IMG/VR virus record: IMGVR_UViG_3300030419_006614
Span: 1-29,193 of that record
Direction: 5' to 3' (one strand)
DNA: 29,193 nt
Source of the DNA: a virus
This document shows, piece after piece, positions 3,355 through 26,966 of the stretch. The notes beneath the pieces are model-generated. The model saw only the letters and a list, made by a program, of their open reading frames with translations, was not told the origin of the DNA and did no database searches. Every line of letters starts with the position of its first letter. The first letter of the stretch is position 1. The translations under genes were made by a program, and so were the position numbers.

Positions 3355-4408
3355 TATAAATTTCAAACAATCAAAAATATGTTGTATCTCAGATATTCAT
3401 CTTGGAGTTCACCAAAATAACAATAACTGGCATAAAATTTTGATTGAATGGGCAACCTGGCTCGATAAAGAACTTAAAAAGAAGAAAATTTTCGATATAA
3501 TGATTTGTGGTGATTTATTTCACTACAGGGATGAAATTGCAGTAAATAGTTTACAAGTTGCAAAACAGTTTTTTGATATTTTAGAAGATTATAATATTGT
3601 AATGATTACAGGTAATCATGACTGTTACTATAAAGATACCAGTACTGTTAATTCATTATCGTTATTTGGTGGTTGGAAAAATATTACTGTAATTGATACC
3701 CTTACTGTAGATGATATTTTCGATAAAAGAGTTTCTTTTGTACCTTGGGGAGTTAATGTAAAGGATATTCCTAAATGTGATCTTGTTTTTGGTCATTTTG
3801 AACTCACCGACTTTAAAATGAACAATTTTAAAATTTGTGATCATGGTGATAGTCCTGAATCTCTTTTAAATAAATCAAAAATGATCATAACTGGTCATTT
3901 TCATTTACGGTCTGAACGAAAGTATGACGAAGGTAAAATTTTATATCTTGGTAACCCCTTTCAAATGGATTTTGGTGATGCGGAAAGTAGAAAAGGGTAT
4001 TACATCTTAGACTTTGACGACATACAAAACCCTAAATTCACTGAAAATAAAGTATCACCAAAACATATTAAGTTACTTTTAAGTGACCTTATTAAACATG
4101 ACGGGATAACACCTGAACTTAAACAGCTAATAAAGGGTAATATAATAAAATTGGTTATTGATAAAAATATTCAAGGTGATGATTTAGATATTATTATGAT
4201 ATGTTTGAATAACTTAAAGCCTTTTTCGATAACTGTTGACTACGAAATAAATTTTAATAAATTTTCGGTAGAAGGCGAATTAGACTTTGAATATTCGGGT
4301 GTTGATTATGAATCAACCATAACAGAGTTTGTTACAATGTTGGATATTAACAATAAAAAAGACGTCATTCAATATACAATAGATTTATATAAGTCATGCA
4401 AGGAGTAG
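3347..4408 (+). CDS. 47: gp47-like Mre11/SbcD-family nuclease subunit
   Basis: Metallophosphoesterase subunit of the gp46/gp47 complex, which resects double-strand ends for recombination-dependent replication and degrades host DNA in T4. At 353 aa it is near T4 gp47 (339). Calcineurin-like motifs are in order: SDIHLG with D16 and H18, CGDLFHYRD with D56, TGNHD at 89-92, then GHFEL and GHFHL supplying the late metal-binding histidines. The start is GTG, supported by the promoter spacing; no in-frame ATG lies before the first motif. The 3' end overlaps the following glycosyltransferase gene by 13 bases, so the pair is probably translationally coupled. The partner 46 follows after that gene. Confidence 0.93.
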   Translation: MGNINFKQSKICCISDIHLGVHQNNNNWHKILIEWATWLDKELKKKKIFDIMICGDLFHYRDEIAVNSLQVAKQFFDILEDYNIVMITGNHDCYYKDTSTVNSLSLFGGWKNITVIDTLTVDDIFDKRVSFVPWGVNVKDIPKCDLVFGHFELTDFKMNNFKICDHGDSPESLLNKSKMIITGHFHLRSERKYDEGKILYLGNPFQMDFGDAESRKGYYILDFDDIQNPKFTENKVSPKHIKLLLSDLIKHDGITPELKQLIKGNIIKLVIDKNIQGDDLDIIMICLNNLKPFSITVDYEINFNKFSVEGELDFEYSGVDYESTITEFVTMLDINNKKDVIQYTIDLYKSCKE

Positions 4409-5163
4409 GTATAGTAGTTTTTTCTTTAGGAGGTAAACCTTTAACTAGATGTATCAGAGGACTTGGAGATTTAACTGAGAACACAGTTTTAATCATAGAT
4501 GGTAACAATCAAGCACCTGTAGATAAATCAAAGTTTAAGAATGTTATTACATTTGCTAAAGAAAAGTATCCCAGTGCATGTTATAATGTTGGAATTAGGG
4601 AACTACTTAAAGACGAATCTATTGAACATATATTTTTGTTAAATGACAGTATAGAAATAATTGACGAAACGGTTTTTGAAGATTACATTAATACTTCAAA
4701 GAAAATGAATCTTAAATGTCTTTATTATTGTGTAAAAGAAGACGACCCTTTTGGTGAAGATGTAAATGTCAGAATGAAACTCGACGTAAAAGACGATACC
4801 GTATCATTAAATTACGGTACAAGTGGTGGGTTTGTTTATACCCACACAGACGTTTACGAAAAAGTAGGTTTCTTGGATGAAAGATATAGAGCTGCTATGG
4901 AATGGTCTGATTTTGCTTACAGGGTTTCACAGAAAAATCTTAGTACACCATTTTTATGGTTTCCGAGTTTAGAAAGTGCAAAAAATAAAATTGTCACCAA
5001 CGTTAATAACGATAAAAGATATGAAGAAGACTTTGAGGACAGGCTTGTCAGAGGTATGAAAATATTTTACCTAAAATTTAAATGTGAAATTAAAGATTTG
5101 GTGGATACCTTTTCTAAACAAGACGTGATTGATAAGTTGAAGAAAAAGGTACGTACAGTATAA
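4396..5163 (+). CDS. GT2-like glycosyltransferase between 47 and 46
   Basis: Predicted GT-A-fold glycosyltransferase of family-2 type, 255 aa. The N-terminal strand GVGIVVFSLGG-like opening and a nucleotide-binding segment (VLIIDGNN) are followed by FLLNDSIEII near residue 76, where GT2 enzymes have the metal-binding acidic motif. A GTSGGFVYTHTDVYEKVGFLDERY block and EWSDFAYRV match the acceptor-side and catalytic-base region (usual form: GG...R..F...G.FDE.. and ED.D). There is no membrane segment. The gene overlaps 47 by 13 bases and precedes 46 by 9 bases, so it is made with the recombination nuclease. The acceptor is unknown. Confidence 0.7.
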   Translation: MQGVGIVVFSLGGKPLTRCIRGLGDLTENTVLIIDGNNQAPVDKSKFKNVITFAKEKYPSACYNVGIRELLKDESIEHIFLLNDSIEIIDETVFEDYINTSKKMNLKCLYYCVKEDDPFGEDVNVRMKLDVKDDTVSLNYGTSGGFVYTHTDVYEKVGFLDERYRAAMEWSDFAYRVSQKNLSTPFLWFPSLESAKNKIVTNVNNDKRYEEDFEDRLVRGMKIFYLKFKCEIKDLVDTFSKQDVIDKLKKKVRTV

Positions 5164-7008: not shown

Positions 7009-8232
7009 ATGTTTCAATCACCTTTACAGCAAAACAATCCATTCGGAGGGCATAACCCTTTTGCAGGTAATTTCATTAATAAACAAAAAATTCAGATAGG
7101 TCAACCTGCCCCTGGTCCTGAAGGTACGCCACGTTTTATGAACTATGTAGCTGATTATGGTGGTTGTGGTTTTTGGCGTATTATATGGCCTGAATATTTG
7201 CTTAATGCAAGTATGAAGTGTATGGTTCATACATCCACCGTAATGACTATGGACCCTAATCACTATCAACGCGCAGTAGCCATAAAATTACAAAGACAAG
7301 CTTCACCAGATCAATTAAAGTTTGTAAGATACCTTAAGCAGATTTCAAGTCAAGTGGGGTTTAGGTTAATTTACGAAATTGATGATTTAGCTTTTAGGGA
7401 AGATATTCCAGATTACAACAAATACAAATTTGCATTTACGAGTGATGAAATAAGAAACGGTATCCAAGAAATAATGGAACTGTGTGACGAAATGACCGTT
7501 ACGTGTCAGTTCATGAAAGATTATTACGAATCAAAAACTAATACTCTACCTGTAACAGTTATACCCAACTATGTACCTAAATTTTGGATGGGTAATTTTT
7601 ATAACCGTGAAAAGATAGAATTTGATTACGATAAGCATAAACGTAAACCCCGTGTAGTTTGGTCTGGTTCAGGTGCTCATATTGATGTAGATAATAGGAT
7701 AAAAGGTAAAGATGATTTCTTTCACGTTAATGATGTTATAAGATCAACAGTTGACGATTTTCAGTGGGTATTTTTAGGTGCCATTTCTCGCGACTTAACT
7801 GATTTAGTACAAAAAGGCAAAATTGAATTTCACCCATGGTGTGATTTATATAATTACCCGGAAAAAATATACACATTAAATGCTAATATGATGATAGCTC
7901 CTTTGAGAGATAATAATTTTAATAAATCTAAGAGTGATCTTAAACATCTTGAAGCAAGTTGTTTCGGTTTACCAGTTGCATGTCAAGATATTTGTACATA
8001 CGAAAATGCACCTATTAAATTTAAAACCGGTGAAGAAATGATTGATCAGATTAAAACTGTTCTTAAAGATGAAAGAAGATTTATCAAAGAATCAGTAGCT
8101 GGTAGGAATTTCGCAGAATCAAGATTTTTAGAAAAGGAAGAAAATATTGGTAAATTTTTTGAAAATTATAATTACCCGGTGAACGATCCAAGGAGAAAAT
8201 TTCTCAATAGTTTGCCAGAAAATAAAGCTTGA
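7009..8232 (+). CDS. GT4-like (GT-B fold) glycosyltransferase
   Basis: Predicted GT-B sugar transferase, 407 aa. After a Gln/Asn/Pro-rich start of about 40 residues comes a Gly-rich donor-side loop DYGGCGFWRI. Then follow IYEIDD (a motif of phage and bacterial GT4-like enzymes), TVIPNYVP, the second Rossmann strand RKPRVVWSGSGAHID, and a C-terminal IAPLRDNNFNKSKSDLKHLEASCFGLPV. The last block matches the GT4 donor-binding region, in which a conserved acidic residue (E of HLEAS) contacts the nucleotide sugar. It sits between 46 and 43 with its own promoter. The substrate is unknown. DNA glycosylation and virion glycan synthesis are both possible. Confidence 0.8.
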   Translation: MFQSPLQQNNPFGGHNPFAGNFINKQKIQIGQPAPGPEGTPRFMNYVADYGGCGFWRIIWPEYLLNASMKCMVHTSTVMTMDPNHYQRAVAIKLQRQASPDQLKFVRYLKQISSQVGFRLIYEIDDLAFREDIPDYNKYKFAFTSDEIRNGIQEIMELCDEMTVTCQFMKDYYESKTNTLPVTVIPNYVPKFWMGNFYNREKIEFDYDKHKRKPRVVWSGSGAHIDVDNRIKGKDDFFHVNDVIRSTVDDFQWVFLGAISRDLTDLVQKGKIEFHPWCDLYNYPEKIYTLNANMMIAPLRDNNFNKSKSDLKHLEASCFGLPVACQDICTYENAPIKFKTGEEMIDQIKTVLKDERRFIKESVAGRNFAESRFLEKEENIGKFFENYNYPVNDPRRKFLNSLPENKA

Positions 8233-8264: not shown

Positions 8265-10853
8265 ATGTATAGGAATGTTGTTTATGAGCCCTCACAAGAA
8301 CAAATGCGACTGTTCACTTGGGATGAGGATGGAAATAGAATACAAGTAACGCAAAGTTACAACCCGTATCTTTATATTGAACCTAAAGATAGTAGGCATC
8401 AAACTGCAACTTCTATTTACAAGACACCTTTGCGTAAGGTGGTATTCAAACGTGAATCTGAAAGAAGACAGTTTATTAAAAACAACAAAATAAAAAGGTT
8501 GTTTGAGCATTTACCAGTAAAGCAACAATTTTTATTAGATAATTTTTGGCAAGTAAATGAAACTGACGACTTTACGAAAAACCCAATCAAGATGCTTTTG
8601 TTAGATATTGAGACCTATTCACCTGATGGGTTTCCAAATATCGAAAATGCTAATCATGCGATTAATGTTATTACAGTTTACGATAATCTTGAAAAAAAGT
8701 TTTATACTTGGGGTACAAAAGAGTATAAAGGTAAAGGTAGAGACGATTTAGAATACGTTTATTGTGAAACTGAAAGGGTACTATTTGCAAAGTTCCTTGA
8801 TTACCTTGAGAAAGATTACCCAGATATCTTAAGTGGATGGAACTCTGAGTTCTTCGATATTCCATATATTATAAAACGTTGTGAACGTATTATGGGTAGT
8901 GAAGAAATGAAGAGATTATCACCTGTAAACAATGTATATTATCGAAGCATTCAAGGTGCTTTTGGTAGGCAACAAATACGTTGGTATATTGAAGGTATAG
9001 CTTTGTTAGACTATTTAGATATATACAAAAAGTTCGCACCTTTAAGGGAATCATATAAACTTGATGCAATTGGTGAACTTGAGTTAGGTGAACGAAAGGT
9101 GGAGTTTCAAGGTATGGATTTGGCAACCTTATCTGACGTTGATTGGGATAAGTTTATTGACTACAACATTCAGGACGTAAACCTACTCGTAAGATTAGAA
9201 GAAAAGCTACAATATTTGGGTTTGATACGGATGTTAGCTTATGTAGGGTGTGTTACCTTTGACGCAGCTATGGGTGCGTTATCGGTGATTAATGGGGCTT
9301 TTTGTATTCGTGCAAGACACAAACAACAAGTCATACCTACTTTTATACGAGGGGAAGACACGGGTAAGAATCCAGGTGCATATGTAGGTGAACCCCAACA
9401 AGGGTTCCAAAACTACATTCTATCTTTTGATGCTAACAGTCTATATCCTAATGTGATGATATCGCTCAACTTATCACCTGAAACTAAGATTGGTAAAATA
9501 CTAGAAAAAACTGATGACCGGGTTGTTATGGAGATGGTAAGTGGTAAAGTCAAAGAGTTTACTATTCCAACTTTTGTTAAGATGATAAAGGATTACAAAC
9601 TTACAGTATCAAAAGCTAATATTGTATTCCATCAACAAGAAAAGGGTATCATTCCTGAAATTGTAGATTATTATTATCAAAAACGCAAAGTGTTCAAAGA
9701 TGAGTATGTTGACTTGAAAAAGAAACATGCAAGTATGAAGAAAAGCGATCCAGATTATGAAAAGACCGGGGTAGATTCACAACGAGCCGGGACCAAACAG
9801 TTAACGGTGAAAATTTTGATTAACTCAATATATGGATATTTCGGTAACAAAAATGCACCTATTGGGGATGACGATATTGCATCATCAGTTACATTAAGTG
9901 GTCAAGCAGTAATTAAACAAAGTAACGTAATTATTAGAGACTTTATCAAACTTAAAACTGGTTTGAGTGATGAAGACTTAAAGAAGAAGGATCCTATCAT
10001 TTATAATGACACAGATTCCTCTTATGCATCAATTGAGTTACTGATTAACCATTTAGGGTTAAACTTCAAAAATGAAAAGGGTGAAGTTCATGATGATATA
10101 TACAAGCTTGAAGACGAATTGGTAGCTTATTTGAATAAGCAAATAATGATTTGGGGTAAGAAGGTATTCAATAGTAAAGATTGTAGATTTGTATTCAAGC
10201 GTGAGTGTATTGGCGAAGTTGGTGTATTCTTACAGAAGAAACGTTATGTCATGAACATACTTGATGACGAAGGTGCTAAGATAAACAAAACGAAGTATAC
10301 TGGGGTAGAGGTAGTTAGAACTACGTTACCGAACTCATTAAAACCTCATATGAAAAATGTAATTGAGATAATGCTCAGTACTCAAGACTACCAGCAAACC
10401 AATGAAGCAATGAAAGTGGTTTATGATAAATTCAAAGATTTGCCTATAACTGATATTGCAAGTGTAATGGGGTTAAAAGGGTATGAAAAATATGCAGGTC
10501 AATGTGACGGTATGAAGACAGTAAAGGGTATGCCAATACATGCAAAAGCAAGCTATTTTTACAATCAATTGGTAAAATTGCATAAACTTGATAAAAAATA
10601 TGAACTGATTGGTTCGGGGGATAAGGTTAGATTTTTCTATGTTAAGAAACCAAACAAATATAATGTTGATTCTATTGCATATAAGTACGAATGGCCTGAA
10701 GAATTTGATGCATTTTTCAAACCAGATTACGATAAAATTTATGAAAAGTTAATTTTTGCTCCTATCGAACGATTTTATAAAGCAGTTAACTGGAAATGTT
10801 ATTTACCAAACCAGGCAGTGCAGTGTGATTTATTTAGCTTATTATCTGAATAG
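8265..10853 (+). CDS. 43: gp43-like family B DNA polymerase
   Basis: Replicative polymerase with 3'-5' proofreading exonuclease, 862 aa (T4 gp43: 898). Exo I is LDIET with D114 and E116, Exo II WNSEFFDIPY with D198, and Exo III YNIQD with Y300 and D304. Polymerase motif A is FDANSLYPN with D389, motif B contains KILINSIYGYFGN, and motif C is YNDTDS with D582 and D584, so all catalytic acids are present. The last ten residues, QCDLFSLLSE (Q853 to E862), look like a sliding-clamp binding peptide, as expected for partnership with gp45. The gene is unbroken, with no intein or split as found in some phage polymerases. It is followed by the Sm-like protein gene under a separate promoter. Confidence 0.97.
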   Translation: MYRNVVYEPSQEQMRLFTWDEDGNRIQVTQSYNPYLYIEPKDSRHQTATSIYKTPLRKVVFKRESERRQFIKNNKIKRLFEHLPVKQQFLLDNFWQVNETDDFTKNPIKMLLLDIETYSPDGFPNIENANHAINVITVYDNLEKKFYTWGTKEYKGKGRDDLEYVYCETERVLFAKFLDYLEKDYPDILSGWNSEFFDIPYIIKRCERIMGSEEMKRLSPVNNVYYRSIQGAFGRQQIRWYIEGIALLDYLDIYKKFAPLRESYKLDAIGELELGERKVEFQGMDLATLSDVDWDKFIDYNIQDVNLLVRLEEKLQYLGLIRMLAYVGCVTFDAAMGALSVINGAFCIRARHKQQVIPTFIRGEDTGKNPGAYVGEPQQGFQNYILSFDANSLYPNVMISLNLSPETKIGKILEKTDDRVVMEMVSGKVKEFTIPTFVKMIKDYKLTVSKANIVFHQQEKGIIPEIVDYYYQKRKVFKDEYVDLKKKHASMKKSDPDYEKTGVDSQRAGTKQLTVKILINSIYGYFGNKNAPIGDDDIASSVTLSGQAVIKQSNVIIRDFIKLKTGLSDEDLKKKDPIIYNDTDSSYASIELLINHLGLNFKNEKGEVHDDIYKLEDELVAYLNKQIMIWGKKVFNSKDCRFVFKRECIGEVGVFLQKKRYVMNILDDEGAKINKTKYTGVEVVRTTLPNSLKPHMKNVIEIMLSTQDYQQTNEAMKVVYDKFKDLPITDIASVMGLKGYEKYAGQCDGMKTVKGMPIHAKASYFYNQLVKLHKLDKKYELIGSGDKVRFFYVKKPNKYNVDSIAYKYEWPEEFDAFFKPDYDKIYEKLIFAPIERFYKAVNWKCYLPNQAVQCDLFSLLSE

Positions 10854-11259: not shown

Positions 11260-11272
11260 GTTATATTTCTTT

Positions 11273-11299
11273 AGCGCCTCTTAGGAGGCGCTTTTTTTT
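11273..11299 (+). terminator. Strong intrinsic terminator after the Sm-like gene
   Basis: A perfect 8-bp GC-rich stem (AGCGCCTC / GAGGCGCT) with loop TTAG is followed by eight consecutive T. It is the only textbook rho-independent terminator in the window. It separates the polymerase unit from uvsX, whose promoter begins 3 bases downstream. Confidence 0.93.
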
Positions 11300-11302
11300 G
11301 TC

Positions 11303-11330
11303 TTGATTACCCGTTTTTATAATCTATAAT
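11303..11330 (+). promoter_or_regulatory. Promoter of uvsX (TTGATT-N16-TATAAT)
   Basis: TTGATT at 11303-11308, 16-base spacer, TATAAT at 11325-11330, 6 bases to the ATG at 11337. A second TATAAT lies within the spacer at 11318-11323. Because a terminator stands directly upstream, uvsX must depend on this promoter. Confidence 0.82.
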
Positions 11331-11336
11331 AACTAC

Positions 11337-12422
11337 ATGGCTAAAGATAAGATCGCAGATGTTTTTTCAAGTTTAGATAAACTTAACCCTGAAGCTACAT
11401 ACTTAAGTGAAAACGCACTATCTAATGTCGATACCTGGTATGATACAGGTTGTTATGCATTGAATGCTATTATAGGTGGTAGGTGTGTTGGTGGTGGTGT
11501 ACCGAAAGGTAGATTAATTGGTTTTGCTGGACCATCTCAATCAGGTAAGACTTATATTATTAATAAAATTTTAGGTAACGCACAGAAACAAGGTATCCAC
11601 CCAGTTATTTTTGACACCGAGTTTGCTGTTGATAAAGAAAGTACAGAAGGCGTTGGTCTTGATGCCACTAAAACCAAATATGTACCCGTATATACAGTAG
11701 AACAATGTCGTAACCAAGTAGTAGCTTTGCTTGATAGTATTGTTGAAAAGGGGTTACAAGGTAGGTTTATTATTTCTATCGACTCTTTAGGTAACTTAGC
11801 ATCACAAAAAGAGGTAGATGATGCTGCTAAAGATAAGAGTGCAATGGATATGGGTCTTAGAGCTAAACAGTTAAAGTCTATGATGAGAATTTTAACTTAT
11901 AAGGCTGGGTTGTCAGGAACCACTATTTTGTTTAGTAATCATACCTATGACGATCCTTCTGCGTTAATGCCTACGTTAGTTAAGACCGCTGCTGGTGGTA
12001 GTGGACCCCAGTATATGGCAAGTGTGTTGGTACAACTTGCTAATAAAAAGGAACGTCAAGATGCATCAAACGATAATGATGAAATGTTACCTGAATCACG
12101 AAACTATTCGGGTAGCACACTTCGGTTTTTGACAACCAAAAATCGTTTTGTACCTCCTTATTTGCAAGCAGAGATTTACCTTAACTTTAAAACCGGTTTA
12201 GACAAGTATAGTGGCTTGAAAGACATGGCTGTTAATCATGGGATATTAACGCAGACCGGTAGTACATTTCAAATTGGTATCGAGAGTGAGGACGGAAAAC
12301 GTAAGGTGGGAGATAAAATAGGTTATTATAAAAATTGGAGAAAAGATGTAGATCTTTGGGAAAATTTTATTATTCCTGAATTAGATAAAAAGTTGAAATT
12401 AGCATATAGCTACGGTAAATAA
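11337..12422 (+). CDS. uvsX: UvsX-like RecA-family recombinase
   Basis: Strand-exchange ATPase that forms filaments on ssDNA, 361 aa (T4 UvsX: 391). Walker A is GPSQSGKT at 65-72; the following FDTEFAVD carries the catalytic glutamate region and FIISIDSLGN near 143-152 is Walker B. TILFSNHTYDDP and the AAGGSGPQYMAS segment correspond to the L1/L2 DNA-binding region of RecA-fold proteins. The N-terminus (SSLDKLNPEA) resembles the short UvsX protomer-contact helix. It acts with UvsW, gp32 and gp46/47 encoded nearby. It begins directly after a terminator with its own promoter; the carbamoyltransferase gene follows after 4 bases. Confidence 0.95.
   Translation: MAKDKIADVFSSLDKLNPEATYLSENALSNVDTWYDTGCYALNAIIGGRCVGGGVPKGRLIGFAGPSQSGKTYIINKILGNAQKQGIHPVIFDTEFAVDKESTEGVGLDATKTKYVPVYTVEQCRNQVVALLDSIVEKGLQGRFIISIDSLGNLASQKEVDDAAKDKSAMDMGLRAKQLKSMMRILTYKAGLSGTTILFSNHTYDDPSALMPTLVKTAAGGSGPQYMASVLVQLANKKERQDASNDNDEMLPESRNYSGSTLRFLTTKNRFVPPYLQAEIYLNFKTGLDKYSGLKDMAVNHGILTQTGSTFQIGIESEDGKRKVGDKIGYYKNWRKDVDLWENFIIPELDKKLKLAYSYGK
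12393..12421 (+). promoter_or_regulatory. Possible promoter of the carbamoyltransferase unit (TTGAAA-N17-TAAATA)
   Basis: TTGAAA at 12393-12398 inside uvsX, 17-base spacer, TAAATA at 12416-12421 across the uvsX stop, 5 bases to the ATG at 12427. It is weaker than most; read-through from uvsX could also drive this gene. Confidence 0.45.
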
Positions 12423-12426
12423 CATC

Positions 12427-14031
12427 ATGGCAAATATTGCTTTTTACGGTTCGCACAATGGTGCTATCGCCCTTGAAGATAACGGGGAATATTATGTAAT
12501 TGAACTTGAACGTTTTTTTAATATTAAAAATATTGGGTTAGCTCAATATAAGCCGTTGCGTTTTAGAGAAGAAGCCGTATACGCAGTATTAGAGTATATT
12601 GAAAAAGAACTTGGTTATGTGCCACCCTTCGAAAATCTAATTCATATCAATACGGAATGTGTACATGACGATATAACATATAGTTATAAAGATTTCATTC
12701 CTGCAAAAACTGTTTTAGAAGGGTGGCATCACCATGCACATGCAAGTGGTTCATTTTATCAATCTAATTTTAATGAAGCTATTATTTTTAGTTTTGACGG
12801 TGGTGGTAATGACGGCTTTTTTAATATTTTTACAGCTAATAGAAAAGACGGGGTAAAATATTTGGATAAAACAAACCCTGCAGAAAGACATGATTATGAT
12901 TATGACTTTGGTTTTCCTTATATGTGTTTTGCACATTATTGCCCCGATATTAAACAAGAATGGATTTCAGATGGTAATCTTGTTTATAGTGGGAAAATTA
13001 TGGGGTTGTGTGGGTTCGGTAAAGTTAGACACGAATGGTTAAACGCATTTAAAGAGTTCTATTATTCAAAACCTGATGGTGAAGATTATGTTGAAAAACT
13101 TAATAACATTATAGGTAGAAAATGTAATTTGGTATTCGATGAAAATAACAGATTAGAAAAAGAAGTTAGCTGGGATGTAGCAGCTACATCTCAACAGGCT
13201 TTTGAAGATGTATTTTTTGAAGTTGCAATGCCGTATATTGACAAATATAAAGATCTGCCAATTATTATTACCGGTGGTTGCGGTCTTAATATTCTACTTG
13301 CAACTAAAATTAAAGAGAAATTTCCTAATCGACCTAGCTTTGTAGCACCCAATACAAATGACTGTGGTATTGCGTTAGGTTTGCTAGCAGGTTTTAATAA
13401 ACCCAAAGAACCTATTGATATTACATATGGTGGTACGGAACTAATGGATAAAAATTGTTACCCGGCATGGATCGAAAGTAACGTTGCTAAACCTGTTAAC
13501 TTTGAAGACATAGTAAACTATCTATGTGAAGGAAAAATATTTGGAGTTGCAAGAGGTAGATGTGAACATGGTCCTAGAGCTTTAGGAAACAGGTCTATTA
13601 TTTGTAACCCGGCTTTTCCTGAGATGAAAGATATATTGAATCATAAAGTTAAACACCGGGAGTGGTATAGGCCATTTGCCCCGGTAGTTAGACTTGAAGA
13701 TGTTTCGAAATATTTTGAATGGGAAGGCGAAACAAGACATATGCTTTATTGCCCAAGGGTACGTAAAGAATGGCAAAAGGAACTAAGCTCTATTACTCAT
13801 GTAGACGGGACTGCAAGAGTACAAACCATTACAAGAGAACAGAATGAATGGCTTTATGATCTTCTTACCGTATTTGAAGCTAAAGCAGGTCATGGGGTAT
13901 TGTTAAATACATCGTTTAATATTGCAGGTAAACCTATTCTTAATACTATAGCTGATGCAATGAAAGTGCTTGAAACTTCGCAGATGGATTTTATAATCAT
14001 CGAAGATTTTTACTATGGAAAATACTGGTAA
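12427..14031 (+). CDS. NodU/CmcH/TobZ-type carbamoyltransferase
   Basis: Probably transfers a carbamoyl group from carbamoyl phosphate to a hydroxyl of a sugar or other small substrate, through carbamoyl-adenylate as in TobZ. The 534 aa match the family (about 550-600). The N-terminal Kae1/ASKHA-like domain has the metal-binding HHHAHASGSFY motif near 102-111 and the FSFDGGGNDG phosphate loop. ITGGCGLN and CGIALG follow. The C-terminal domain contains GRCEHGPRALGNRS, KHREWYRPFAPVV and LNTSFNIAGKPI, all characteristic. The 3' end overlaps queC by 17 bases, which ties it to that pathway. The substrate cannot be read from sequence: a nucleotide-sugar product of the phage's own epimerase or dehydratase, or a modified base, are candidates. 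Confidence 0.9.
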   Translation: MANIAFYGSHNGAIALEDNGEYYVIELERFFNIKNIGLAQYKPLRFREEAVYAVLEYIEKELGYVPPFENLIHINTECVHDDITYSYKDFIPAKTVLEGWHHHAHASGSFYQSNFNEAIIFSFDGGGNDGFFNIFTANRKDGVKYLDKTNPAERHDYDYDFGFPYMCFAHYCPDIKQEWISDGNLVYSGKIMGLCGFGKVRHEWLNAFKEFYYSKPDGEDYVEKLNNIIGRKCNLVFDENNRLEKEVSWDVAATSQQAFEDVFFEVAMPYIDKYKDLPIIITGGCGLNILLATKIKEKFPNRPSFVAPNTNDCGIALGLLAGFNKPKEPIDITYGGTELMDKNCYPAWIESNVAKPVNFEDIVNYLCEGKIFGVARGRCEHGPRALGNRSIICNPAFPEMKDILNHKVKHREWYRPFAPVVRLEDVSKYFEWEGETRHMLYCPRVRKEWQKELSSITHVDGTARVQTITREQNEWLYDLLTVFEAKAGHGVLLNTSFNIAGKPILNTIADAMKVLETSQMDFIIIEDFYYGKYW

Positions 14032-14845
14032 TATAGAAGAAGCACCTCCACCACAACGTAAGAGTGGGGTAATGATATTTAGCGGTGGTATGGATAGTGC
14101 CGCTATGCTTAGATTAGCACAATTTAGCGTTAATGATCTTTATTGTTTGACTTTTGATTATGGTCAAAGACATAAAAGGGAAATAGAATGTGCGAAGACA
14201 CAGATTCAACATGCTAAACTTTTATCTTTTAATCATTCATTTGAGGATTCATATATCGAACATGTTGTTATAGATATAACTAATCTTATCGAAATATTTG
14301 GTCGTAATAATTCTATAACTAATTTAGATATTCGAAACCCAGATGTTACAAAAATGGTTGGAGAAGCTCAACCAGCAAGTTACGTACCTTTTAGGAACCA
14401 AATATTTTTATCGTTAGCATGTGCTTATGCTGAAACGGTAAACGCTAATTATATATATCACGGTGCTACAAAAGTGGATAGTTTAGCAGGTTACTGGGAC
14501 GCAAGTCAAGAATTTAAAGACGCATTTCAACATTTAATTCAATTGAATAGAAAATATGAAATGGAGATACAATGTCCATTATTAGAAATGGATAAAAAAG
14601 CTATTGTCGAATACGGCTATAGTAATTCAATTTCCTTCAAAGATACATACACATGTTATAGTGGTGAAGATTTATGTGATGCAACCACACCAAGTAGTTC
14701 TTTAAGACTTAAAGGGTTCGCTGATGCAGGTTATATTGACCCGTTACCATATAAACAAGACTTAACTGAGTTTTGGGAAAAACATAATTGCAAACCATAC
14801 CATGATGAAGTATTCTTAAATACAGAAGGAACTAGAGGACCATAA
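14015..14845 (+). CDS. queC: QueC-like 7-cyano-7-deazaguanine synthase with altered zinc site
   Basis: QueC converts 7-carboxy-7-deazaguanine to preQ0 with ATP and ammonia. The 276 aa carry a PP-loop SGGMDS at 23-28, FDYGQRHKREIECA as in QueC, YVPFRNQIFLSLACAYAE and a C-terminal LRLKGFADAGYIDP. The usual C-terminal zinc site has four cysteines (C...CxxCxxC). Here only C214 (TYTCYSG) and C221 (EDLC) remain, and the last two positions are replaced in DATTPSSS while the flanking sequence is kept. It also has a 16-residue polar extension before the first strand. It overlaps the carbamoyltransferase by 17 bases and the methyltransferase by 1 base. In phages, QueC usually serves 7-deazaguanine DNA modification. 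No FolE, QueD, QueE or DNA transglycosylase is in this window. Confidence 0.88.
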   Translation: MENTGNIEEAPPPQRKSGVMIFSGGMDSAAMLRLAQFSVNDLYCLTFDYGQRHKREIECAKTQIQHAKLLSFNHSFEDSYIEHVVIDITNLIEIFGRNNSITNLDIRNPDVTKMVGEAQPASYVPFRNQIFLSLACAYAETVNANYIYHGATKVDSLAGYWDASQEFKDAFQHLIQLNRKYEMEIQCPLLEMDKKAIVEYGYSNSISFKDTYTCYSGEDLCDATTPSSSLRLKGFADAGYIDPLPYKQDLTEFWEKHNCKPYHDEVFLNTEGTRGP

Positions 14846-16831: not shown

Positions 16832-17908
16832 ATGAAGACAGCGTTAGTATGTGGTGCAGGTGGGTTTATTGGTAACCACCTTGTTACAAGATTAAAAAAA
16901 GAAGGTTATTGGGTAAGAGGTGTAGATCTTAAGTATCCTGAATTTTCACAAACACAAGCAGACGAGTTTGTTACAGGTGATCTTACGGGGCAAAAATTTG
17001 TAGACAGAATAGTTCGTACTGGTGATTATCATTCCAGTGTACCTGTTCAATATCAAGAACAGTTTGATGAAATTTACCAATTAGCTGCTGATATGGGTGG
17101 TGCTGGCTATATCTTCACGGGTGATCATGATGCTAATGTCATGAGAAACTCAGCAACTATTAATCTTAATATTCTAAACTCGGTTAACCAGCTCAATCAA
17201 TACGTTAAGTTACCGTGGTATAGTGATTCGAGAGTTTACCCTTATGAACAGAAAGAAACTCGTATTTTTTACAGTAGTTCTGCTTGTATGTATCCTGAAC
17301 ACAACCAACTAGACCCAGATAACCCGAATTGTGAAGAATCCTCTGCATACCCTGCTAACCCTGACAGTGAGTACGGTTGGGAGAAGTTATTCTCCGAAAG
17401 GCTTTACATGGCATATCAAAGAAATTACGGCATTCCTTGTAGAATAGCAAGATTTCACAATATCTACGGACCTCAAGGAACGTGGCAAGGCGGTAGAGAA
17501 AAAGCTCCTGCAGCTATGTGTAGGAAAGTCGCTGAAACCGAAGATGGTGGTAGTATAGATGTTTGGGGTGATGGGTCACAAACACGTTCATTCTTATATA
17601 TTGATGAATGTGTGGAGGGAATTAGACGTTTGATGGATTCTGATGTTTCAGAACCGTTAAATCTTGGATCTGATGAAATGGTGACCATTAACCAGTTAAT
17701 TGAAACCGCTGAAACGGTTGCAGGTAAGAAATTAGTCAGAAATTATATTGACGGGCCACTAGGAGTAAGGGGTAGGAATAGTGATAACACACTAATCAAA
17801 GAAAAATTAGGTTGGGCCCCACATTACCCGTTACTTAAGGGTATTACTCATACATATGACTGGATATATGATCAAATCAATATCAGCACGTTAAAAACCG
17901 AAGCTTGA
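16832..17908 (+). CDS. GDP-mannose 3,5-epimerase-like extended SDR enzyme
   Basis: NAD-dependent nucleotide-sugar epimerase/dehydratase, 358 aa. It has the Rossmann loop GAGGFIG at 8-14 and QLAADMGGAGYI with the following DANVMRNSATINLNIL, a signature close to plant GDP-mannose 3,5-epimerase. SSSACMYPE has C152 where that enzyme uses a catalytic cysteine, EYGWEKLFSERL contains the Y181-x3-K185 pair, and the C-terminal sugar-binding part has GPLGVRGRNSDN. The expected product is GDP-L-galactose or GDP-L-gulose from GDP-mannose, although epimerase subfamilies are easily confused. It follows the amidotransferase and precedes helicase 41. It likely supplies a sugar donor to the phage's glycosyltransferases. 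Confidence 0.85.
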   Translation: MKTALVCGAGGFIGNHLVTRLKKEGYWVRGVDLKYPEFSQTQADEFVTGDLTGQKFVDRIVRTGDYHSSVPVQYQEQFDEIYQLAADMGGAGYIFTGDHDANVMRNSATINLNILNSVNQLNQYVKLPWYSDSRVYPYEQKETRIFYSSSACMYPEHNQLDPDNPNCEESSAYPANPDSEYGWEKLFSERLYMAYQRNYGIPCRIARFHNIYGPQGTWQGGREKAPAAMCRKVAETEDGGSIDVWGDGSQTRSFLYIDECVEGIRRLMDSDVSEPLNLGSDEMVTINQLIETAETVAGKKLVRNYIDGPLGVRGRNSDNTLIKEKLGWAPHYPLLKGITHTYDWIYDQINISTLKTEA

Positions 17909-20527: not shown

Positions 20528-21190
20528 GTGACTGAGTTCGAACAACTAATATACAACCTTCACCTAAAAGTTTCACGTACGGTTCAAAATAAACCTTATC
20601 GTTTTCGTAATAATTTCGAAAAATTGGGGGAAGATAAACAAATGTATTGCAAAAAACTAGCTCAGTTTTTTACTAAACATAAACACATAAACATTGAAAC
20701 TTTTTTTAAGTCCCCGTACCATATTTACGAAGATAAACCTAATTTAGACTTAAAATTTTATACTTCTTTAAAGGCATGTAAGCTTTATTTTGATTTTATT
20801 AAAAGTAAAAACAAACACGATATTAATTCAAAAGAAACCAAATCTTTTTACAAAAACTCTGCTTTATTTGTAACAAAGTACTGTATTGAGAACAAAATAA
20901 CGTGGGATGAATATATTATATACAAGGTAAACGAATTTGACAGGGTGAATGCCTTTTTCAGTCACCTAAAAAACGGAGATGTATCAATTTACTTTCTTAT
21001 GTCGTTTAATAATTTTGAACCGGAGTTTAAAAAACATGATAAAGAGGTTATTATGCATATGCTTAATGATACAATTAACTCTATTAGTCAACACCGTTTA
21101 AAGTTTTACAATAAAAAGGAGGAAACAAAATTGTTTTTCGATAAGGTGTTTAATTTATGTAAAAACAAAGTTGACTCCTCGTTAGATTAA
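20528..21190 (+). CDS. 59: gp59-like helicase loader
   Basis: 220 aa, nearly the length of T4 gp59 (217), all-helical in appearance. The N-terminal part PYRFRNNFEKLGEDKQMYCKK-like region, FFKSPYHIY and the LKFYTSLKACKLYFDFI block resemble the gp59-type proteins of marine T4-like phages, and the gene sits directly before 32 as in T4. gp59 loads gp41 onto gp32-coated forked DNA. Identity to T4 gp59 itself looks low, so the call rests on length, helical pattern and synteny. The start is GTG, 6 bases after TATAAT. The end of this gene holds the -35 box of the gene 32 promoter. Confidence 0.6.
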   Translation: MTEFEQLIYNLHLKVSRTVQNKPYRFRNNFEKLGEDKQMYCKKLAQFFTKHKHINIETFFKSPYHIYEDKPNLDLKFYTSLKACKLYFDFIKSKNKHDINSKETKSFYKNSALFVTKYCIENKITWDEYIIYKVNEFDRVNAFFSHLKNGDVSIYFLMSFNNFEPEFKKHDKEVIMHMLNDTINSISQHRLKFYNKKEETKLFFDKVFNLCKNKVDSSLD

Positions 21191-21198
21191 TATATAAT
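21171..21198 (+). promoter_or_regulatory. Promoter of gene 32 (TTGACT-N16-TATAAT)
   Basis: TTGACT at 21171-21176, 16-base spacer, TATAAT at 21193-21198: one of the two best matches to sigma70 consensus in the window. The predicted transcript start is near 21205, 60 bases before the ATG, unlike the leaderless neighbours. Confidence 0.85.
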
Positions 21199-21204
21199 AG
21201 AGAA

Positions 21205-21264
21205 GTTATCGGTAACTAGCGGTTACCTTAACGAGAAAAACTAAATTAACTAAGAAACTTAAAA
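21205..21264 (+). promoter_or_regulatory. Gene 32 leader: 5' hairpin plus A-rich single-stranded tail (candidate autoregulatory operator)
   Basis: The predicted mRNA 5' end begins a two-part stem: GTTA (21205-21208) with TAAC (21229-21232), and GGTAAC (21211-21216) with GTTACC (21222-21227) around loop TAGCG. From 21233 to the ATG the leader is almost all A, C and T with repeated ACTAA/TTAA elements and no Shine-Dalgarno sequence. T4 gp32 represses its own translation by binding a leader pseudoknot and spreading over an unstructured AU-rich tract; the layout here is parallel. A pseudoknot pairing is not obvious by eye. Confidence 0.6.
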
Positions 21265-22128
21265 ATGACAGATATTAAATCATTATTCGAAAGTATTAAG
21301 ACCGAAATGACTAAGGACGATAAGGGTTCGAATCGTTCACAGTTTTTGAGGACGGAAGTAGGTAACACATACACAGTTCGTTTGTTGCCAAACGTGAAAG
21401 ATGCAACTAAAACATTCTTTCACTATTACTCACACGGTTGGACATCGTTCGCAACCGGTCAGTATCTCAATCACATCAGCCCACAGACATGGGGTGAACG
21501 TGATCCTATCGGTGAAGCGCGTTATCGCATTACTAAAACAGGTACCGAAGAAGAAAAGGAAAAGGCTAAAGCAATTTTGCGTCGTGAAAATTGGTTGGCT
21601 AACGTCTATGTGGTTAACGACCCTGTTAATCCAGACAATAACGGTACGGTTAAGTTGTTGCGCTTTGGTAGACAGTTGCATAAAATCATTATGGAGGCTA
21701 TGCAAGGTGATGAAGCCGATGAGTTGGGTTATCGAATCTTTGATCTCAGTAAGAATGGATGCGATTTTCGTATCAAAGTTGAGAAGCAAGGCGATTTTCC
21801 GACTTATGTCTCATCGAAGTTTGGTATGCCTAAAGCAATTGAAGGGGTGGACTCGGATAAAGCTCAAGAAATCTATGATAACCAGTCAGATCTTGAAACT
21901 GTATTTACAGTTAAGAGCTACGACGAACTAAATGAGATCTTGAACGAGCATTTTTATTGTGTAAGTACTGATAGCAATGCTAAAGTCCAAACATCAACAG
22001 TCGAAACTAAGAAAGAGCCTGTTGTTGAAACACCTAAGCCAGTGGAAAGCACGACAAGTAGCACTTCTACTGACGATGACGATGAGGACATTGCAAGCTT
22101 GCTGAATAGTTTAGATGAAATGAACTAA
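21265..22128 (+). CDS. 32: gp32-like single-stranded DNA-binding protein
   Basis: Coats ssDNA and coordinates replication and recombination; 287 aa (T4: 301). The basic N-terminal part (NRSQFLR) supplies the cooperativity region. The core contains YYSHGWTSFATGQYL, ISPQTWGERDP, NWLANVYVVNDPVNPDNNG and VKLLRFGRQLHKIIMEAM, all gp32-type. A Ser/Thr/Pro linker leads to the acidic tail DDDDEDIASLLNSLDEMN that binds partner proteins. The Cys-rich zinc site of T4 gp32 is absent: only two Cys occur, both outside that region. Arg codons are mainly CGN (10 of 12) and Leu often TTG, unlike the AGA/TTA-rich neighbours, which fits very high expression. It has its own strong promoter and a structured leader. 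The stop overlaps the next ATG by one base. Confidence 0.95.
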   Translation: MTDIKSLFESIKTEMTKDDKGSNRSQFLRTEVGNTYTVRLLPNVKDATKTFFHYYSHGWTSFATGQYLNHISPQTWGERDPIGEARYRITKTGTEEEKEKAKAILRRENWLANVYVVNDPVNPDNNGTVKLLRFGRQLHKIIMEAMQGDEADELGYRIFDLSKNGCDFRIKVEKQGDFPTYVSSKFGMPKAIEGVDSDKAQEIYDNQSDLETVFTVKSYDELNEILNEHFYCVSTDSNAKVQTSTVETKKEPVVETPKPVESTTSSTSTDDDDEDIASLLNSLDEMN

Positions 22129-24960: not shown

Positions 24961-26010
24961 ATGAATGATGGTTCAGAAATTAAACCCGTTTCCCGTGTAT
25001 TAATTATTGGAAAAGGCTTTATTGGTACACAATTATCAAATTTTCTTTCTCAGGATGAAGATATTGAAGTTCATTCTATTGCAAACGAACAAGTAAATTA
25101 CTTAGATTCAGTAGAGTTAAATTCGTTTTTAGATACATACCTTGGTGAAAGTATACATTTTGATACTGTAATTAATTGTTCTGGGGTAACTGGTGAGCGA
25201 AATGTTGATGATGTGGAAAACGATAAAGAACTTGCTTATCTGTATAATGCAGTTTTACCATCTGTTATTGCAGGTGCTTGCGTTAATTTTGATATTAATA
25301 ATTTTATAAACATTTCATCAGGTTGCATTTTTACAGGGCCAAAAGAGGATGGAACCGGGTATACTGAAACTGATATACCTAATTTCGGTATGTTTAATGA
25401 TGAATCGTCTTGGTACAGCAAAACTAAACATGCAGGTGAGTTAAACTTAACAAGCGTTTTTAATACATACAATCTACGCATAAGAATGCCTATTGGTGAA
25501 ATTTATCACCCAAGAAATACCATATTAAAAATGGCAAGATATAAAAATATCTTGAATTCTGATAATAGTGTAACCTATCTTTACGATTTGTTTAATTTCG
25601 TTTATAATTTGATTCTTACAAACCAGCCTTTTACTGAAAATCAAATGCCATACGGTATATACAACATAGTAAGTAATGGCACTTTTAATCCTAAAATGCT
25701 TTTTGAAGCTTTTAACAATAATAAGGAAGAGCTTCTTGAAGCAGACATCTTACCTAAAGGTTGGGATATAAAAAATATTAAATTTCTTGATGAATCGCAA
25801 TTTAAGAAAAATAAAGTAACTAAAGTCGGTCGTAGTGTCTGTATTATGGACAATACTCTTGCTAGTAACTTAGACATTCATAAGTTTGCTGATATCAATC
25901 AGGAATTTATTGACAAATTAGTTAAAAATATTGTTTTGGATAAGAAAAATCAAGAATCAACAGTAGTTCAAACCGAATTTTCTGATCCCGAGCCAACGGA
26001 AGACATATGA
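24961..26010 (+). CDS. RmlD-like NAD(P)-dependent sugar reductase (extended SDR)
   Basis: 349 aa with a Rossmann loop GKGFIGTQ (G17, G19, G22), VINCSGVTGERNVDDVE at the position where RmlD has the N-A-A-Y-T-x-V-D-x-A-E motif, ISSGCIFTG supplying the catalytic Ser/Thr, and YSKTK with Y152 and K156. RmlD reduces dTDP-4-keto-L-rhamnose to dTDP-L-rhamnose; with the RmlB-like gene that follows, a dTDP-6-deoxysugar route is plausible. However, the protein is longer than RmlD (about 290-300), so another 4-keto-sugar reductase is equally possible. The stop overlaps the start of the dehydratase gene (ATGA). RmlA and RmlC are not seen here. Confidence 0.75.
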   Translation: MNDGSEIKPVSRVLIIGKGFIGTQLSNFLSQDEDIEVHSIANEQVNYLDSVELNSFLDTYLGESIHFDTVINCSGVTGERNVDDVENDKELAYLYNAVLPSVIAGACVNFDINNFINISSGCIFTGPKEDGTGYTETDIPNFGMFNDESSWYSKTKHAGELNLTSVFNTYNLRIRMPIGEIYHPRNTILKMARYKNILNSDNSVTYLYDLFNFVYNLILTNQPFTENQMPYGIYNIVSNGTFNPKMLFEAFNNNKEELLEADILPKGWDIKNIKFLDESQFKKNKVTKVGRSVCIMDNTLASNLDIHKFADINQEFIDKLVKNIVLDKKNQESTVVQTEFSDPEPTEDI

Positions 26011-26966
26011 CTATTTTAGTTACAGGTGGCTATGGTTTTATTGGTAGTCATTTAGTTAAAGAACTGAATGATAAAGGATATAAAGTCCTTATTTACGATT
26101 TACAAACTTATGCAACCGATTACGTGGACTTTGAATACGGTAAACCTCAGTGGAGAGTGTGGGGAGACATTCTAGATGTTAAAAAACTTAATTCAGTTTT
26201 AAAGACCCATAAGATAGATAAAATTATTCATCTTGCTGCTGAGTCGCATGTAGATAATAGTATAAAAAATCCTAATAAGTTTGTTGAAACAAATGTACTA
26301 GGTACTGCAAACATATTAAACATTGCAAAAGATAAAAACATACCAATGGTTCATGTTTCAACCGATGAAGTTTATGGTACTTTAAGGTCAGACGATAAAA
26401 ATTGGAACGAAAAACAACCTATTCAACCAAGGTCACCTTATTCAGCATCAAAAGCTGCATCAGATATGTTAGCGCTTTCTTATTATCATACATACGGTAC
26501 AAATGTAAAGATAACAAGGTGCTGTAATAACTTTGGAATTAATCAACACATTGAAAAGTTAATACCCAAATCAATTTGTTCGAGTTTTAATAATAAAGAA
26601 ATTTTAATTTATGGGGATGGCACAAATAAACGTGAGTGGATACATGCTCAAGATCATGCTAAAGGGGTGATCTTGGTAATGGAAAAGGGAGATCCCGGAG
26701 AAGTATATAACATAGGTACGGGTGAAGAGTATTCTAACAATCAAATATCGAGGATGATAGCTAAATACACAAAGACAAACGCTGTTACCCGTTATATTGA
26801 TGATAGACTTGGACATGACTATAGGTACGCACTAAATTACGGAAAGATAAAGAGACTAGGTTTTAAACCTACGAGATCTATTAAAGATAGAAAAGAGTGG
26901 AATGAAATTATTAAATTTTACAAGAAATATACAGAAGCCGAAAGAAAGGTACCTGTACGCGGTTAA
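26007..26966 (+). CDS. rfbB: dTDP-glucose 4,6-dehydratase-like enzyme (RmlB)
   Basis: Converts a dTDP-hexose to the 4-keto-6-deoxy sugar; 319 aa, family about 330-360. GGYGFIG (7-13) binds NAD. HLAAESHVDNSI, STDEVYG with T119, D120, E121 (catalytic acid-base pair) and PYSASKAASD with Y145 and K149 are the full RmlB active-site set. NFGINQHIEKLIP, REWIHAQDHAKG and LGHDYRYALNYGKI are the substrate-binding signatures. The substrate base (dTDP, CDP or UDP) is less certain than the chemistry. It overlaps the reductase upstream by ATGA, forming a two-gene sugar unit. Confidence 0.9.
   Translation: MTILVTGGYGFIGSHLVKELNDKGYKVLIYDLQTYATDYVDFEYGKPQWRVWGDILDVKKLNSVLKTHKIDKIIHLAAESHVDNSIKNPNKFVETNVLGTANILNIAKDKNIPMVHVSTDEVYGTLRSDDKNWNEKQPIQPRSPYSASKAASDMLALSYYHTYGTNVKITRCCNNFGINQHIEKLIPKSICSSFNNKEILIYGDGTNKREWIHAQDHAKGVILVMEKGDPGEVYNIGTGEEYSNNQISRMIAKYTKTNAVTRYIDDRLGHDYRYALNYGKIKRLGFKPTRSIKDRKEWNEIIKFYKKYTEAERKVPVRG

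Follow-up and report, generated by a model that had tools for sequence, protein, structure and literature searches.

The leader of gene 32 in the viral DNA fragment analysed here (29,193 bases, hereafter the window) begins with a 28 nt hairpin that is kept, with compensatory base changes, throughout one clade of relatives, and continues as a nearly G-free, mostly unpaired tract reaching the start codon. The comparative evidence indicates that the hairpin is conserved as an RNA element with which the predicted transcript begins. Our tentative best explanation is that the leader is a translational operator through which the gene 32 product (gp32) would regulate its own synthesis, by analogy with the T4 operator in its action, but differently built.

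Gene 32 and its promoter

The window carries T4-type replication genes. Gene 32 (21265–22128; this gene, its upstream neighbour and all leader features described below lie on the plus strand) encodes a 287-residue single-stranded DNA-binding protein that matched Pfam PF08804 (E = 9e-20), phrog_224 (1e-48) and, by profile, the gp32 chains of the PDB (5e-17). Upstream lies a 220-residue ORF (20528–21190), for which no family match was found and which, by synteny only, would occupy the gene 59 slot of the T4-like order. An Rfam search of the whole window returned zero matches. Six regions among the replication genes (4396–5163, 7009–8232, 12427–14031, 14015–14845, 16832–17908 and 24961–26966) hold putative enzyme genes that, judged by sequence, have a sugar-nucleotide/glycosyltransferase, carbamoyltransferase, QueC-like or epimerase/dehydratase look, and are possibly involved in DNA or glycan modification.

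Gene 32 has a sigma70-like promoter (21171–21198, 11 of 12 matches), in which the −35 hexamer TTGACT (21171–21176) and the −10 hexamer TATAAT (21193–21198) are separated by a 16 nt spacer; the −10 and the spacing are also present in relatives. The −35 sits inside the final codons of the upstream ORF (stop codon 21188–21190), and TATAAT is 66 nt from the ATG at 21265, so that the promoter described in an earlier note on this DNA (TTGACT/TATAAT, 66 bases upstream) matches the sequence exactly. It ranks first among 20 promoter-like sites in 4.5 kb, a number at the shuffle level (shuffle mean 19.1).

From promoter spacing, the transcript is predicted to start at G21205, 6 nt past the −10. In 16 of 19 leaders of relatives, a G occupies the position exactly 7 nt past the −10 hexamer, most often as the stem base, although the intervening 7 nt have entirely different sequences. 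A G at this fixed distance, usually at the stem base, points to a transcript whose predicted 5′ end coincides with the hairpin base, as the earlier note had also predicted.

Most other promoter-bearing genes of the window have their −10 only 4–11 nt ahead of the start codon, which makes gene 32 the exception within the window and bears out the leaderless background that the earlier note had described. Much of the T4-like replication module is predicted to be expressed from leaderless mRNAs, and the same would apply to gp32 in many relatives. At the genes starting at 8265, 11337, 16157, 19302, 20528, 22654 and 27213, a TTGA(T/C)..TATAAT promoter ends 5–8 nt before the start codon. Directly ahead of the leaderless uvsX promoter there is also a strong GC-rich terminator (window 11260–11337), the position of which is kept in the relatives L453, L456 and L457.

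A covarying hairpin at the predicted 5′ end

The hairpin (21205–21232) is both the minimum free energy and the centroid structure, and comprises an outer stem GTTA/TAAC (21205–21208 and 21229–21232), a core stem GGTAAC/GTTACC (21211–21216 and 21222–21227) and a loop (21217–21221). Both stems had been read from the sequence in the earlier note, and are exactly as given there. Taken as a single sequence, the window hairpin is unremarkable and proves little: the folding-energy z-score is −1.39 for the leader and −2.68 for the hairpin alone, and 1.2% of the window's 34-nt stretches contain a comparable stem (7 bp or more, 3 or more GC pairs, loop of 3–8 nt). With single-sequence scores this modest, its significance rests on the comparative evidence, which is strong. 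A terminator or attenuator was considered and rejected, since the sequence downstream is A-rich and has no U run.

Relatives of gp32 were collected from IMG/VR searches at about 28–82% identity; known isolates reach at most about 36% and provide no close leader for comparison. The promoter, hairpin and G-free tract are present in all relatives at 76–82% and 64–68% gp32 identity, and in three deeper lineages (L254/L257/L261, L218 and L225/L230) at 57–59%. The stem occurs as GGUAAC/GUUACC, GGCAAU/AUUGCC, GGUAAU/AUUACC and CAAUACG/CGUAUUG, and in distant members as AAUACGACA/UGUUGUAUU, with both sides changed. The earlier note had taken loss of the stem in relatives as grounds for giving up its proposal; the stem is instead kept, with compensatory changes. 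In an alignment of 18 distinct leaders, pairing is possible in 85.8% of cells and double-sided changes are seen at 5 of 10 pairs, with a covariation score of 0.210 compared with 0.130 for shuffled alignments (none of 500 as high) and at most 0.11 when the alignment register was slid. RNAalifold, unprompted, recovered the same six-pair core. The loop varies from 3 to 7 nt, and the stem base stays ~7 nt past the −10. Together, the compensatory changes, the variable loop and the fixed position of the stem base argue for an RNA element at the transcript 5′ end.

The G-poor tract and a proposed operator

Downstream of the hairpin, the remainder of the leader (21233–21264) is A-rich and, by fold prediction, mostly unpaired, with ACUAAA, UUAACUAA and CUUAAAA motifs; it contains 3 G in 32 nt, in keeping with the tract almost free of G that the earlier note had remarked on. 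No Shine-Dalgarno sequence was seen in this tract or in 22 pooled leaders of relatives. In these 22 leaders the tract is 71–99% predicted unpaired, and its G content is 2.0% (leaving out the 8 nt adjoining the stem) compared with 18.3% in the window. YUAAA occurs 41 times in the tracts of the 22 relatives against 15.4 expected from shuffles, and CUAA 35 times against 7.7, counts that come from related leaders and so are not independent; YUAAA showed no enrichment in L006, L254 and L261. Tract length across the clade is 32–52 nt. The site size of gp32 is ~7 nt per monomer, so a tract of this length would have room for 5–7 monomers.

In T4 and RB69, gp32 nucleates on a folded element and from there extends along a UUAAA/UAAA tract as far as the ribosome-binding site; the operator has a folded 5′ part of ~28 nt and more than 40 nt with UUAAA/UAAA repeats (PMC535899, PMC3014915). 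The T4 tract reads UUAAUUAAAUUAAAUUAAAAAGGAAAU. The leader described here (21205–21264) stands before the same gene as the T4/T2/RB69 operator and likewise has a folded RNA of ~28 nt on its 5′ side (starting at −60, compared with −67 in T4). From there to the start codon runs an unstructured, A+U-rich tract with repeats of the UAAA type, which is found clade-wide, with repeats that are weak in some members. In T4 the folded element ends up at the mRNA 5′ end through RNase E cutting at −71, immediately 5′ of the pseudoknot (PMC3014915); here it is predicted to do so because the promoter would set the 5′ end. Unlike the T4 element, the folded part is a simple hairpin rather than an H-type pseudoknot, has no sequence similarity to it, and is not accompanied by a Shine-Dalgarno sequence. 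A T4-like pseudoknot was sought and rejected, the loops (3–7 nt) being too short and the loop-to-flank pairing at the shuffle level.

In the mechanism that we propose, gene 32 would be transcribed from its own promoter as an mRNA that starts with the hairpin (about −60 to −33) and continues as a single-stranded A/U/C tract (−32 to −1) up to the AUG, without a Shine-Dalgarno sequence. This tract is the proposed region of both gp32 coating and ribosome loading. When gp32 is in excess of the available single-stranded DNA, it would cooperatively coat the UAAA-rich tract through the start codon, and ribosome loading would be blocked. The hairpin would form the 5′ boundary of coating, and possibly its nucleation site, and would also shield the 5′ end of the message. 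We favour an operator because of the conserved, covarying stem, the YUAAA-rich unpaired tract and the T4/RB69-like layout. Counting against it, sister lineages with gp32 54–59% identical have leaderless gp32 genes and evidently manage without an operator; a similar hairpin leader precedes the major capsid gene (gp23) in one clade member, where gp32 would not be in control; YUAAA enrichment is missing from the three leaders named above; and there is no T4-like pseudoknot.

Similar leaders on gp23 and a possible role in message stability

The gp23 leader in question belongs to L460 (IMG/VR 3300021093_000041), which is on the same contig as the gp32 locus L219, and gp23 hairpin leaders were also found at L463 and L466–L475 (grouped with L460 by gp23 closeness). 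Gene 32 alone had been credited with a structured leader in the earlier note, which is correct within the window but does not extend to this clade member. Like the gp32 leader, the gp23 leaders combine a compensatory hairpin with a short G-poor tract and an ATG without a Shine-Dalgarno sequence. They differ in their stems, which are unrelated to those of gp32 and covary among themselves (AGCGCUC/GAGUGCU, AGUAC/GUACU and ATATGTACTAT/ATAGTATAT), in a tract of 20–28 nt with a conserved AAACCC(G/A)-type motif, and in the promoter motif directly upstream, the late-promoter-like ATAAAGAATTT. In the gp23 leaders of more distant relatives (L459, L461, L476 and L478–L500), a conserved hairpin (TTGAGGC..GCCTGA) is accompanied by the motif GGTCGA and by AAGGAGA, which is SD-like and indicates that those phages or their hosts use SD-like sites for some genes.

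The presence of hairpins before gp23 makes it more likely that the hairpin protects or boosts the message. A 5′ stabilising hairpin with an unstructured ribosome-loading tract, raising the output of a protein needed in stoichiometric amounts while other messages stay mostly leaderless and involving no autoregulation, is a real possibility. Stem-loops of the ompA type stabilise bacterial mRNAs, and 5′-end protection requires the stem to be at the transcript 5′ end. The promoter spacing predicts this arrangement here: in most members the predicted +1 coincides with the stem base. As in the ompA type, the hairpin would lie at the 5′ end or no more than ~2 nt from it, with a single-stranded leader after it. 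It is also in line with this role that the structure is conserved while stem and loop sequences are not, and that gp23 shares the layout behind a different promoter-like motif. In T4, the gene 32 mRNA, cut by RNase E just 5′ of the pseudoknot, is the most stable T4 message (PMC3014915).

Against stabilisation as the sole function, the gp32 tract is longer than that of gp23 (32–52 compared with 20–28 nt) and richer in YUAAA, neither of which a stabiliser needs, and its UAAA repeats are foreign to the ompA class. In addition, a scan for hairpin leaders across ~290 genes in five clade records, with terminators (including those before uvsX) and in-gene false starts set aside, found gp32 only. A second promoter-hairpin candidate, in L448, was discarded as it lies inside an ORF. 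We therefore favour an autogenous operator over a leader that purely stabilises or boosts expression, and both functions may coexist.

Distribution and origin of the leader

A covariance model of the leader ranked the gp32 leader first in each of the clade A/A2 records to which it was applied (up to 80 kb) and recovered those of L218/L219 and L230, absent from its training set (E = 0.002–0.06); the remaining matches were weak (E above 0.03) and AT-rich. A pattern scan of prokaryote genomes for the leader found nothing, and an initial DNA-pattern scan of viral contigs was abandoned as too loose, with mostly unrelated loci. A tree was built from 144 gp32 proteins, with inspection used to assign the hairpin set and a lenient pattern to label rows outside the clade. 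The 23 rows with hairpin leaders group together as a single clade (SH-aLRT 96), every row of which has the leader, and one change on the tree suffices. Neighbouring clades mostly have a promoter at the ATG, or gp32 overlapping the upstream ORF.

In one set of loci (group C, which includes L021, L027, L033 and L037), the upstream ORF and gp32 share 4 nt (AAATGA). A TATAAT is conserved 95–98 nt upstream; the palindrome TCGAGA..TCTCGA, which lies in frame ahead of gp32, overlaps coding sequence and is broken in some members. The TATAAT and palindrome may represent a coding-embedded form of the leader.

As the hairpin clade is nested among leaderless lineages, its distribution argues for a gain; retention of the T4 operator would require many losses. 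The simplest account is that the leader was probably gained once within this clade and is convergent with that of T4. Vertical retention of the T4 operator, as the earlier note had suggested, is disfavoured by these data and very unlikely. The gene and the layout are the same, and some cyanophages (S-CAM8 and Syn33) also have hairpins ahead of gp32, but both the stem sequence and the topology differ from T4, no sequence is shared, and the clade requires a single change among relatives with leaderless gp32. Of the parallel operator with a different sequence that the earlier note envisaged, the conserved T4-like layout thus stands, and descent from a retained operator is not supported.

A binding site in DNA is most unlikely. 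The window has a perfect dyad, GGTAAC-N5-GTTACC, just past +1, a position compatible with a repressor, and a palindrome beyond the promoter could serve a dimeric repressor or activator. However, the spacing of the half-sites varies (loops of 3, 4, 5 and up to 7 nt), the stem sequence is fully replaced in L218/L225/L230, and there is a single strong site per record. At the six core pairs, one-sided changes give G-U on the gene strand and never A-C, which with the variable loop speaks for structure in the RNA and against a dyad in the DNA, although few independent stem-change events stand behind this argument. Despite the modest single-sequence z-scores, a functionless chance hairpin in an AT-rich leader is refuted by the clade-wide conservation and covariation, and is next to impossible.

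Implications for control of abundant phage proteins

Returning to the proposed gp32 operator, a broader and more doubtful idea is that a lineage with mostly leaderless messages invented the 5′ hairpin and G-free tract as a dedicated leader for its stoichiometric products (gp32, and gp23 in at least one member), which on gp32 would double as an operator of independent origin from that in T4. A clade with a covarying hairpin whose topology differs from T4, beside leaderless sisters, offers a natural experiment on what a single-strand-binding protein requires to recognise its own message, and the same contrast bears on the way in which abundant proteins are tuned in phages whose messages are for the most part leaderless.
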